NCBI GenBank assembly: GCA_021790115.1
Contig: JAJYIM010000016.1
Coordinates: 1 to 41,650 of the forward strand
Direction: 5' to 3'
Length of the DNA: 41,650 bases
From: Actinomycetes bacterium
GTDB lineage: Bacteria; Actinomycetota; Thermoleophilia; BMS3ABIN01
Each line of letters opens with the position of its first letter. The stretch's first letter is position 1. This document shows positions 33,758 through 41,650 of this stretch, one piece after another. Under the pieces are notes generated by a model. It made no database searches and was not told the origin of the DNA. It worked only from the letters and a program-made list of their open reading frames with translations. The position numbers and the translations under genes were made by a program.

Positions 33758-35050
33758 TTAAGGATAAGTATAGCTTGCCCCCATGCCGTCCTGGGCACTT
33801 GCAGTGAGGGCCGCGGTCCAGGAGTTGACGCCGGCCGGCACGTTGTACTTGAGCGTAACCGACGCGGATGAACCGGCTGCGATGTCGCCGCTGCCCAATG
33901 TCGCAGGCAAGGTCGTCTGCCGGGAGACGCCATTAGTATCGCTACCAGCCGTAAGCTTCACAAGAAACGCGCTGGTGTTCCCGTTATTGCTGACCGTCCA
34001 GGTAACTGAAAGCCGGCCGGCTTGGTAATCCGACAATGAAGCCCAGAATGAAACGGGCAAATCGAGGCTCAACGCGGGTCTCCCAGTTTCAGCCGGCGCC
34101 GTTAATGGCAGGTTGTCCTGGCCGCCAAATTCGAATGTGTAAGGGGAGTCGCAGAAGCCGTCATTATTTGAGTCACTGCAACCCTGGCCGGCGGTGTGAA
34201 AGTCATCCCAGTAGTTGCCGCCTGCGGGGGCGGGCAGGTTAAACAGGTTGCCGCTGCCGCCGTTGATATAAGCCTGAGCCCACAAGCTGCCCAGGATATT
34301 GTTGTGGTAGAACTGGTTGTTGCCGGAGTTGCCTATATAGATGGCATAACTGTTGGTCGAGAATGTGTTGCCGGAGACAATGTTGTTATTGGCGCCGGTT
34401 AGGAGAATGCCATCTCCCCAGAAGTTGTCACTGGCTATGTTTCCGGAAATGGTGTTTCCATTGGAGTTAGAACCAAGATCGATTCCAAAGTTGTTATTTG
34501 AAGCAGTATTGCCTGAAAGAACATTATCGCTGGAAGCAACCAGATCAATGCCAATTCCTCCCGGGGTGCTGTTCTCGCAGATATTGCCCGAAAGGATATT
34601 GCTGCTGGAAGAGCTAAGGCCGACTCCTTCCCAAAAACCCTTTGCTGTCAAGTTCTTGATTGTAACGCCGGTCCTGCCCGAAAGATAAACCCCGTGAGTA
34701 TATTGCGGCACCGTTGAAGAGGCGCTGTCGCCAGCGAGCGTGTGACCATTGCCATCAAGGGTGACCCCGTTGCTTTGGATATCTATCCCATCTGTATGTT
34801 TTGTAAAAGTAATGTCTGCCGTTAGCGTGCAGGTGCTGGTGGCGCCGTTCCAGGTTCCCCATCCGTTGGCGGGAACGGCGCAGTCGCCGCCAGAGCCGGT
34901 GATAGTGTAGGCCGAATACGATGCGGTGGCGGCGCTGGCCAGCAGGCCCCCGGCAGCCAGAGCCAGCATCATGGCCACCAGCAAAATAAGAACAATAATT
35001 GCAGAAACCCCGAAAAACTTCCTGCCTGAAACGCTTCCCTGCGATCCCAT
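33758..35050 (-). CDS. Secreted NosD-like parallel beta-helix protein
   Basis: A hydrophobic N-terminal segment (VSAIIVLILLVAMMLALAAG) acts as a signal peptide or membrane anchor. From about residue 90 to 280 there are many short beta-helix (PbH1/NosD) turns: NGVTLDGNGHTL, GVTIKNLTAKG, NILSGN, NTISGNIASDN and NIVSGNTFS. A Ca-binding-like DSNNDGFCDSPY stretch follows, then a C-terminal Ig-like domain of about 120 residues. The repeats resemble surface carbohydrate-binding or NosD-type proteins; the ligand is unknown. I chose the ATG at 35050 because AAGGG precedes it; the ATG at 35062 is the alternative. It lies between rplL and rpoB, which is unusual. Confidence 0.8.
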   Translation of the reverse strand: MGSQGSVSGRKFFGVSAIIVLILLVAMMLALAAGGLLASAATASYSAYTITGSGGDCAVPANGWGTWNGATSTCTLTADITFTKHTDGIDIQSNGVTLDGNGHTLAGDSASSTVPQYTHGVYLSGRTGVTIKNLTAKGFWEGVGLSSSSSNILSGNICENSTPGGIGIDLVASSDNVLSGNTASNNNFGIDLGSNSNGNTISGNIASDNFWGDGILLTGANNNIVSGNTFSTNSYAIYIGNSGNNQFYHNNILGSLWAQAYINGGSGNLFNLPAPAGGNYWDDFHTAGQGCSDSNNDGFCDSPYTFEFGGQDNLPLTAPAETGRPALSLDLPVSFWASLSDYQAGRLSVTWTVSNNGNTSAFLVKLTAGSDTNGVSRQTTLPATLGSGDIAAGSSASVTLKYNVPAGVNSWTAALTASAQDGMGASYTYP

Positions 35051-35161
35051 GATACCCTTCATTATTTTGATTCACTGGAAAAATTTGTCATGATTTTTTG
35101 ACAAACAAAAAGCAGCCACCAAGCGGCCGCCCCTTTTGCCAGCCAAATCTGACACATTTAT

Positions 35162-35242: not shown

Positions 35243-36862
35243 TTAAAATGTCAACGCCGGACGTCGCAGTGTCCCCGACCGTGCTTTGTAACATGATCCT
35301 GAAAATGGGGCAATACTATCTACTAACCTCAACAGCTGCGCCGCCAGCGGGTACGGTTTACCGTGATTAAAATCCTGGTAAGTCAACGCCTTGTTTGTCA
35401 ACGGACGCTGCCAGCCATACGTGCTCACGTCTTTTGCGCTGTAAATGTTAAACACTTCGGATAACAGGATTTGCGCCGCAGGGTATTGGCTTTCGATGTT
35501 GGGAATCATCGCTTTTCGGCCTTGCTGCGAGACAGACAACAGAATAATGTCGGGCCGTTGTCCTTCAACTTTTTGTGCGTAAACAAGTCCGGTATAAGTT
35601 TCCCAGTCGCCCATCACCACCGCCCCCGGCTTCGCCCTGCTAAAGACGAAATTAACATAATCGCGCATGTCGCGGTCGTTGCGATGATTGGCAAATGCCC
35701 ATGTATGAGGTGTACCGGCCACAAGCAAGCCGAAAAAGCCGAAATAAAAAATGCCCGCGACGATCAGCGCCAGTTGCCGCAATTCTGGGTCAGATTCTGC
35801 CAACTTGTCCAGGGCAATTTTAACCAGATATGCTGACAGACCAGCCCAGACGGCAAAGTAAAACAGCAACGGTAAATAATAATGGGCGTAAATGTCAGTC
35901 AGGACAAAAATGAGGAACATCTGCACGATCATCCCGGCCGCCAGAAAAACAAGCCAGCGCCAGACGAAGCGAAGGCGCCGCCACACGCCCGGCAAAAAAA
36001 GCGCCAGCGATGGCGCGAAAATAAGAATTAAAAACGAAGGGTTATAGCTGCTGTAAACAACTTCATCGAGGCGGCCTTGAACGTCAGCCAGGTTCGGCAA
36101 AAATGACTGTTGCAACCGCGTGTTGTGGGCGTGGGATGCAGACACAAAGCTGATCATTTTTGATAGGCTGTTTATTTTTTGATATTGGATGGCCGGGCCG
36201 GTGGCGCCGCGGATTGGCAAGTAAAGATAAAAACTCAAACCAGTCATAAATAACAGTGTCAAGATCAAAACGGGTTTCAGCCGGAGCAGTTGTTTCCAAC
36301 GCCCCAAAAAGAAGACGCCGGCGATGGGAACCGGCAGGAAGAACATCACCAGGGGATGATAAGCGAGGCCGAAACCCGCCAGCAGCGCGGCGCCCCACAA
36401 AAATCTGATATTGCCGCTTCTGCTCCAAAGCAGCAACAGGACTAACAGGACCGCCATAATTGTGAGCACGGCGTTATAGGGGGTCGCCACGGTTGCGTGG
36501 CTCCACCACATGCCCGCCAGCGCCAGTGTTGCAGCGGAAACAATAGCGGGCAGCACACGGTTGAGCAGCAGTACCATAAAAGCGTAAACGGCCACTACGC
36601 CGGCAGCGCCCATAACGACTGACAAAAAAGTGACTCTTGCGGCCGGCAGGCTAAAGGGGGCCAGCGTCAGCAGCCAGGACAAAATCGTATACGCTGGCGA
36701 GCCGGGGGCATGCGCGATCCCCAGGGTGGCGCCCGTCGCCTGCCATTCGGCCACATCATTAGCGCCAATGTCGGGAGCCATCGTGACCGCGTAAATGATC
36801 AAGCATGCCACGCCCAAAACGGCGCCTATCCAAAACCGGGGATTGTGAAGCAGCCGCCTCAA
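35243..36862 (-). CDS. DUF2723-family multi-spanning membrane protein, possible glycosyltransferase
   Basis: A 539-aa membrane protein with about 10-11 hydrophobic helices and a C-terminal soluble part. Near the N-terminus it has DIGANDVAEWQATGATLGIA followed by HAPGSPAY. This matches the DUF2723 signature (acidic pair, LGIAHPPGYP-like), a family related to GT-C O-mannosyltransferases and to TMEM260. The soluble part includes PGAVVMGDWETYTGLVYAQ. The likely role is transfer of a lipid-linked sugar on the outer face; donor and acceptor are unknown. The start appears to be TTG at 36862, weakly supported. It precedes the NosD-like gene, so the pair may make and glycosylate a surface protein. Confidence 0.75.
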   Translation of the reverse strand: MRRLLHNPRFWIGAVLGVACLIIYAVTMAPDIGANDVAEWQATGATLGIAHAPGSPAYTILSWLLTLAPFSLPAARVTFLSVVMGAAGVVAVYAFMVLLLNRVLPAIVSAATLALAGMWWSHATVATPYNAVLTIMAVLLVLLLLWSRSGNIRFLWGAALLAGFGLAYHPLVMFFLPVPIAGVFFLGRWKQLLRLKPVLILTLLFMTGLSFYLYLPIRGATGPAIQYQKINSLSKMISFVSASHAHNTRLQQSFLPNLADVQGRLDEVVYSSYNPSFLILIFAPSLALFLPGVWRRLRFVWRWLVFLAAGMIVQMFLIFVLTDIYAHYYLPLLFYFAVWAGLSAYLVKIALDKLAESDPELRQLALIVAGIFYFGFFGLLVAGTPHTWAFANHRNDRDMRDYVNFVFSRAKPGAVVMGDWETYTGLVYAQKVEGQRPDIILLSVSQQGRKAMIPNIESQYPAAQILLSEVFNIYSAKDVSTYGWQRPLTNKALTYQDFNHGKPYPLAAQLLRLVDSIAPFSGSCYKARSGTLRRPALTF

Positions 36863-40964: not shown

Positions 40965-41046
40965 GGCAAGAGGCTTCTACCCTGCCGCTTTTGGGCTATC
41001 GAACGTTGCTTATAGAGGTCCCTTTCTTTACTCCATCACTTACCAG

Positions 41047-41074
41047 AAAAAAGAGGCTGATAATCCTCAGCCTC
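41047..41074 (-). terminator. Intrinsic terminator after the small-ORF pair
   Basis: Arms GAGGCTGA and TCAGCCTC (41053-41060 and 41067-41074), six-base loop, followed on the minus strand by TTTTTT (41052-41047). It closes a minus-strand transcript that can only contain the two small ORFs upstream and isolates it from the rpmG promoter. Confidence 0.85.
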
Positions 41075-41141
41075 CCAGTAAAATTCTCATCCATCTCATT
41101 TTTCTTGAGAAACATTCTGCGGAGCAGCGCTGTTGCGGCCG

Positions 41142-41246
41142 CTATAAAACCATTTGGCCATCCTCGCGCGTGATCATCTTAATATTGTCGTGCTTGATCA
41201 ATTGCGGCTTCGCATATGGCTCGCGATCCTTCTTCAAAACGTTCAT
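41142..41246 (-). CDS. Small peptide with lasso-type leader motif, possible RiPP precursor
   Basis: A 34-residue peptide that I translated directly. It starts MNVLKKDREPYAKPQLIKHD and continues NIKMITREDGQMVL. Tyr11-x2-Pro14-x-Leu16 matches the YxxPxL recognition sequence of lasso-peptide leaders. Thr26 lies ten residues after the Leu, where the conserved near-cleavage Thr of that consensus falls; the usual intervening Gly is Asp20 here. Only eight residues follow the Thr, too few for a normal lasso core, so this may be a stand-alone leader-like peptide or a different RiPP. AGGGAG lies 8 bases before the ATG. No modification enzyme is in the window. Its terminator is at 41047-41074. Confidence 0.55.
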   Translation of the reverse strand: MNVLKKDREPYAKPQLIKHDNIKMITREDGQMVL

Positions 41247-41317
41247 TACTGAGACTCCCTGCTAATTCAGTTGATGAAGAAAAAAAGAGAAACCTCTAAT
41301 ATCGCCAGGAGGTCAGA

Positions 41318-41425
41318 TCAATCGTGCAACCGGGTCTGCCATCCAAACCGTGAAAGTTCTGAAGCGCAAAAAGCGGCAAAAAAAATAAGACTGCCAACAA
41401 ATGCGATGCTTCTTTTTTTATTCAC
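41318..41425 (-). CDS. Small signal-peptide-like ORF upstream of the RiPP-like ORF
   Basis: A 35-residue ORF starting at GTG 41425: NKKRSIAFVGSLIFFAAFCA (basic, then hydrophobic, then an Ala-x-Cys-Ala type cleavage region) followed by SELSRFGWQTRLHD. AGGGG lies about 7 bases before the GTG. It would yield a short exported peptide of about 14 residues, or stay as a single membrane helix. It ends 71 bases before the next small ORF on the same strand. It is too short to assign by homology; coding status rests on composition and the ribosome-binding site. Confidence 0.4.
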   Translation of the reverse strand: MNKKRSIAFVGSLIFFAAFCASELSRFGWQTRLHD

Positions 41426-41506: not shown

Positions 41507-41650
41507 TTCAAAGAAGAATAAAACTGGGAGATTGGTTTTAAAAAAACCGGGTTATTGATCCATGCATAAGTAAAGTCCTATCTAAGACGTAAAGAAAGAG
41601 GACTGTGATTGATGAAGGAACGAAGTAGGTATTCTTTACGCTGAAGCGAG

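Follow-up and report, generated by a model that had tools for sequence, protein, structure and literature searches.

A probable relic of a lasso-type precursor family whose members are mostly encoded beside secreted proteins with a shared C-terminal domain

We analysed a stretch of 41,650 nucleotides (the window), which is contig C12 of the source genome (G000; 1.81 Mb in 63 contigs), around a 34-residue open reading frame (ORF) that an earlier note had singled out as an unannotated peptide gene. The ORF is present as described, and its main features are:

41142 to 41246, minus strand: leader-only member of a precursor family, 34 residues, MNVLKKDREPYAKPQLIKHDNIKMITREDGQMVL, ATG start (ORF list and homology)
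41169 to 41246, minus strand: intact leader, residues 1 to 26, with YxxPxL...Thr (alignment to 35 relatives)
41255 to 41260, minus strand: Shine-Dalgarno-like AGGGAG, 8 bases before the ATG (sequence)
41051 to 41076, minus strand: intrinsic-terminator-like hairpin, 10-pair stem and T-run, 3' of the ORF

The YxxPxL motif reads YAKPQL in this ORF, with the Thr also present, and AGGGAG at 41260–41255 agrees with the ribosome-binding site that had been claimed. The claimed terminator has a counterpart in the hairpin at 41076–41051, although a site of this type is expected 0.6 times by chance in the scanned stretch. No sigma-70-like promoter was found upstream on the same strand, Pfam and NCBIfam searches with the ORF gave no match, and an Rfam scan across the window returned one tRNA and nothing else. 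Against a profile built from its relatives, with the ORF itself left out, it scored 39.3 bits (E = 5.7e-10 among 28,231 frames), and its homology is real and far above chance. Another small ORF, MNKKRSIAFVGSLIFFAAFCASELSRFGWQTRLHD, lies at 41318–41425 (minus strand, GTG or TTG start); it is conserved upstream of rpmG-secE-nusG in the sister genomes G001 and G002 and encodes a probable one-helix membrane peptide.

The search for paralogues that the earlier note had proposed returned ten leader copies in the source genome by tblastn (the window copy and nine paralogues) and, for every one of the other 18 genomes in its taxonomic family, two to nine relatives. The closest relatives are at most 74% identical to the window ORF over the leader, and tblastn found almost no leader matches elsewhere in the class, beyond the family. 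A scan of 84,980 species yielded 73 further precursor loci in 16 assemblies, all assigned to the same family; across these species the precursors are restricted to one family of uncultured actinobacteria, and they form a large, apparently undescribed group.

Full-length members consist of the leader REPYAKPELVKHDNLKEIT followed by the core FECxxWxCSVxVPPPPA, which is near-invariant across seven genera and contains two invariant cysteines (C-x4-C with a Trp). YxxPxL and a Thr at −2 occur in the window copy and in all 77 distinct aligned precursors, a motif that had partly served to select the 77, and the Ser of CSV is invariant (77/77 distinct precursors). Third codon positions are two to three times as variable as the others (first, second and third positions: 0.18, 0.19 and 0.47 in the leader; 0.18, 0.13 and 0.37 in the core), with dN/dS of about 0.20 in the leader and 0.18 in the core. 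This codon-position variability and dN/dS near 0.2 show both parts to be translated and under purifying selection; the codon-position conservation whose absence would have refuted the earlier note is present in each. If the precursor is cut after Thr-Phe, core positions 7–9 are Cys-Ser-Val; Asp or Glu at position 7–9, the ring acid of lasso peptides, is absent from the family core.

The source genome has one kinase-RRE-B2 operon, which is unlinked to the window precursor and lies on contig C58 in the order hemW, HprK-like kinase, RRE and B2:

C58, 57674 to 57871: PqqD-type RRE (B1)
C58, 58032 to 58325: B2 protease, the genome's one Transglut_core3 (lasso B2) gene

An RRE adjoining a lasso B2-type protease was among the things the earlier note had advised looking for, and this pair, with the paralogous leaders, bears out its assignment of YxxPxL and Thr to a lasso-type leader. 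None of the three conditions that the note gave as refuting its reading applies. All nine loci examined, which come from six genera, have the kinase-RRE-B2 order, and adjacent RRE and B2 matches were found in all seven genera of the family; the operon adjoins hemW in several of them. B2 scored 38.9 bits against NCBIfam lasso_biosyn_B2 (over the cut-off of 33) and its Cys and His do not vary among nine sequences, whereas the RRE scored 62.1 bits against the lasso PqqD model, under the cut-off of 80. All nine kinases of the maturation loci, and most of those linked to precursors, carry the motif H..G..G.GKS..DD. Three family genomes, of which two are incomplete, gave no B2 match, and since B2 genes also occur in other families of the class, B2 alone is not lineage-specific.

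The third enzyme that had been named, an asparagine-synthetase-like lasso cyclase, exceeded the cut-off (NF033535) in none of the 19 family genomes, and G001 lacks any match, even an AsnB-like one. This, together with the missing ring acid, bears out the earlier suggestion of a different class of peptide that uses the lasso recognition element. The cyclase candidates in the source genome are merely AsnB-like proteins in loci with glycan-type genes; genus g6 has a third AsnB-like gene that matches the lasso cyclase model better, yet below the cut-off. Two further pairs were rejected as alternative maturation sets, a radical-SAM/PqqD pair at C39 and an HprK-like/PqqD pair at C57, with no B2 gene adjoining either. 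The C57 pair, the second HprK-like and PqqD pair in this genome (L043 665–1817 and L038 2035–2142), stands beside a 35-residue ORF, MEGKTKEAYESPVIEEIDLEESFSFGMPPVASPFI, and looks like another precursor system. A different precursor-like ORF, with leader REPYEQPELIKLGALKELT and core AQECWECQGSFTF, was seen in G010 (L048 7322–7507).

Most precursors are directly preceded by an ORF for a secreted protein, and these proteins have in common a C-terminal domain (CTD) of about 108 residues. Among 101 distinct precursors, 90 had at least 500 bp of upstream sequence and were assessable, and 71 of these 90 have a same-strand CTD stop codon 14–113 bp ahead of the leader, counts that do not represent independent events because many loci come from related genomes. 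Thirteen of the other 19 are solitary intact precursors at a single conserved, syntenic site beside hemC/hemA (L028 7968–8123 and its 12 orthologues), which recur across genera without a CTD and are possibly the ancestral copy. The CTD gene is directly downstream of the precursor in L077, and a CTD-like domain lies in the gene next to the precursor in L152. In seven of nine loci, the kinase-RRE-B2 operon also has a CTD gene no more than 4 kb away.

Each of the 19 family genomes has 11–39 CTD copies; the 1.8-Mb source genome has 23 (about 1% of genes) against 10 leaders, and an adjoining precursor is absent for about half of the CTD proteins. Of 230 genomes of the class outside the family, one gave a single match, in an assembly with 5% contamination, and the CTD is confined to the family apart from this stray match. 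In their N-terminal parts the CTD proteins are not related to one another, appearing propeller-like, rhodanese-like, beta-helix-like or Ig-like in sequence, yet the pairing of CTD and precursor persists. A Pfam search with the CTD gave no family above threshold. Its predicted structure is an Ig-like sandwich (pLDDT 96), for which Foldseek found nothing in the PDB below E = 0.001 (the best matches were weak, to adaptin-ear-like Ig sandwiches), and a PDB sequence search returned nothing convincing. The window contains one CTD gene:

33758 to 35062, minus strand: secreted protein of 434 residues with beta-helix-like repeats and the CTD at its end

This gene sits between that of a large membrane protein (35243–36862) and rpoB, and while an intact precursor immediately precedes the orthologous gene of G002, the gene in G000 has none.

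In about a dozen loci, the gene order is CTD protein, precursor, lipoprotein and a second HprK-like kinase. The lipoprotein ends in GW[DPS]xGGIxIxVPxxP or a close variant (GGWDSGGIEIVVPPAP), carried on a Gly/Pro-rich linker, and this tail resembles the tail of the precursor core. Among 9,695 frames the tail pattern matched 12 distinct proteins, all precursor-linked lipoproteins and no others, a count that measures specificity only because the pattern was formulated after the tails had been seen. A kinase gene comes next in most of the 12.

We give somewhat better than even credence to the reading that intact precursors are phosphorylated and lose their leader, that the resulting peptide acts together with surface proteins carrying the CTD, and that the window ORF is a decayed copy. 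Homology and gene linkage establish the machinery, whereas its function is inferred. The RRE protein (B1) would bind the leader (YxxPxL...T) of intact precursors, the HprK-like kinase, helped by B1, would probably phosphorylate the invariant core Ser (ECxxWxCSV), and the B2 cysteine protease would cut after Thr-Phe to give ECxxWxCSVxVPPPPA, a product whose two cysteines may form a disulfide and which lacks both an acid for ring closure and a cyclase to act on it. These putative roles in holding the leader, phosphorylating the Ser and removing the leader are drawn by analogy with BsfA/BsfK/BsfB1/BsfB2: for BsfA of Bradymonas, kinase, B1 and B2 activities lead to Ser phosphorylation and leader removal, and the H, P-loop and DD residues of BsfK are important (PMC10368454).

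The mature product would then work with the Ig-like CTD of the secreted proteins encoded just upstream, the core most probably binding the CTD as a beta-strand with a polyproline tail and so controlling folding, attachment or release, while the lipoprotein, whose core-like tail sits on a flexible linker, would tether CTD proteins to the membrane. Strand-type binding is suggested because the core, the lipoprotein tail and the final CTD strand (for example, YSYPGPMP) share a beta-strand-plus-polyproline character. A role as a structural partner rather than an antibiotic is argued for by the constant core, the genome-wide dispersal and the CTD pairing, although adjacency need not mean interaction, because CTD-precursor cassettes may be copied together. 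The many CTD proteins that lack a precursor beside them and the 13 solitary hemC/hemA precursors also count against this reading. Since no dedicated exporter was noticed and no evident signal peptide was seen in the precursors, export of the peptide and its contact with the CTD outside the cell are conjectural. More speculative, and rather unlikely in our judgement, is a lineage-wide protein-display system in which the phosphorylated, leader-cleaved RiPP peptide and its unprocessed look-alike on the lipoprotein compete for, or complete, the CTD and thereby switch dozens of secreted proteins between membrane-held and released states.

The peptides could also be ordinary secreted lasso-type bacteriocins or signals, with the CTD genes mere operon neighbours through duplication of CTD-precursor cassettes. 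Such an origin is consistent with the lasso-type leader, the B1/B2/kinase set and the tandem cassettes (three precursors in L044, for example), but we consider it unlikely: the core barely changes across seven genera, unlike the variable cores of bacteriocins, cyclase and ring acid are both lacking, no immunity or ABC gene was noticed beside the precursors examined, and the pairing survives although the CTD proteins' N-terminal parts are unrelated. Still less probable is a role of the precursors inside the cell, as small redox or metal-binding peptides that regulate how the upstream CTD protein is expressed or exported, with the leader as a docking tag only; the two invariant cysteines, the want of an evident signal peptide and a weak zinc-finger-like match in one member (E = 0.01) speak for this, but the match is under the Pfam cut-off, and the B2 protease, the Thr at the lasso cleavage site and the core-like lipoprotein tails would be left unexplained.

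The preferred reading, in which the window ORF is a decayed copy, draws on three further features of the window:

41120 to 41168, minus strand: degenerate core, GAG[GA]TG-GCCAAATGG against GAGTGCGCCAACTGG (ECANW) of paralogues L027 and L021, in a shifted frame
40968 to 41316: about 350 bp of extra DNA carrying the window copy, against 59–80 bp at the same place in G002 and G001
41553 to 41650: 98-bp repeat with identical copies at three other contig ends; elsewhere in the genome it overlaps a transposase-like ORF (L085)

A putative core of only about eight residues had been reported, which is true of the window copy and not of the family, whose core has about 15–18 residues. The window copy ends in TREDGQMVL and does not match the family core ECxxWxCSVxV; an Arg after the Thr (TREC) is also found in some paralogues. 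At the DNA level, ACGCGCGAGGATG-GCCAAATGG of the window aligns with ACGCGCGAG--TGCGCCAACTGG of L027, corresponding to a shifted ECANW, and similarity to several relatives continues beyond the stop codon of the ORF (blastn). With the first 9 bases fixed, the score of the core alignment was reached by 39 of 500 shuffles. The core was probably lost by frameshift, for which support is moderate, and the eight-residue stretch is most likely a stump of the standard core rather than a novel one; the window copy is therefore probably a relic, a core-less copy of the precursor family, or a leader-only by-form. The flanks of the 350-bp segment align on both sides with the sister genomes. The 98-bp repeat is an insertion-sequence end, which accounts for the contig break. 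A functional leader-only ORF that occupies the RRE (B1) as a decoy or brake on the maturation of other precursors seems very doubtful: the leader is intact though the core is gone, and the start codon, Shine-Dalgarno-like site and terminator are retained, but the copy at this site is confined to G000 and missing in G001 and G002, which leaves the leader-only form without evidence of selection, and the DNA 3' of the stop is still core-like. As a whole, the interpretation in the earlier note is partly supported.

Among known systems, the phosphorylated lasso peptides (paeninodin; BsfA/BsfK/BsfB1/BsfB2, PMC10368454) share the YxxPxL leader, a conserved residue (Thr) before the cut, a discrete RRE (B1) and a B2 protease, and their HprK-like kinase has the catalytic motif seen here. 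Of the discrete lasso-type RREs that RRE-Finder retrieved, only about half co-occur with a lasso protease and cyclase (PMC7470986), and the precursor family provides a defined case of a lasso-type RRE without a cyclase, with substrates, enzymes and candidate partners in hand. It differs from the phosphorylated lasso peptides in having no macrolactam synthetase, no ring acid, a near-invariant core, about ten unlinked precursors per genome and linkage to CTD surface proteins. No match for cyclase-less lasso-type systems or for RiPPs tied to sorting domains was found in the literature searched. Prochlorosin cores are highly diverse, whereas the core of the precursor family is constant, and the enzymes are unrelated. 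In both cases, many precursors are served by one modification enzyme (prochlorosins of picocyanobacteria, PMC10783134). The HprK-related kinase A/PqqD/nucleotidyltransferase sets (NCBIfam TIGR04352 and relatives) likewise place an HprK-like kinase beside PqqD, and NTP_transf_5 occurs near kinase/PqqD genes in several genomes. In contrast to those sets, the kinase here reaches 60 bits where the cut-off is 200, and it comes with a lasso B2 protease and defined precursors.

Surface proteins can also bear C-terminal sorting domains, as in the PEP-CTERM/exosortase, LPXTG/sortase and Por CTD systems. The CTD resembles them as one short domain at the extreme C-terminus of many unrelated secreted proteins, but no sortase motif or terminal transmembrane helix was seen, and it is Ig-like and paired with a peptide gene. 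The combination of a constant core and surface-protein pairing points to RiPP chemistry in a structural or sorting role rather than as an antibiotic, a role that is directly testable with small recombinant parts.
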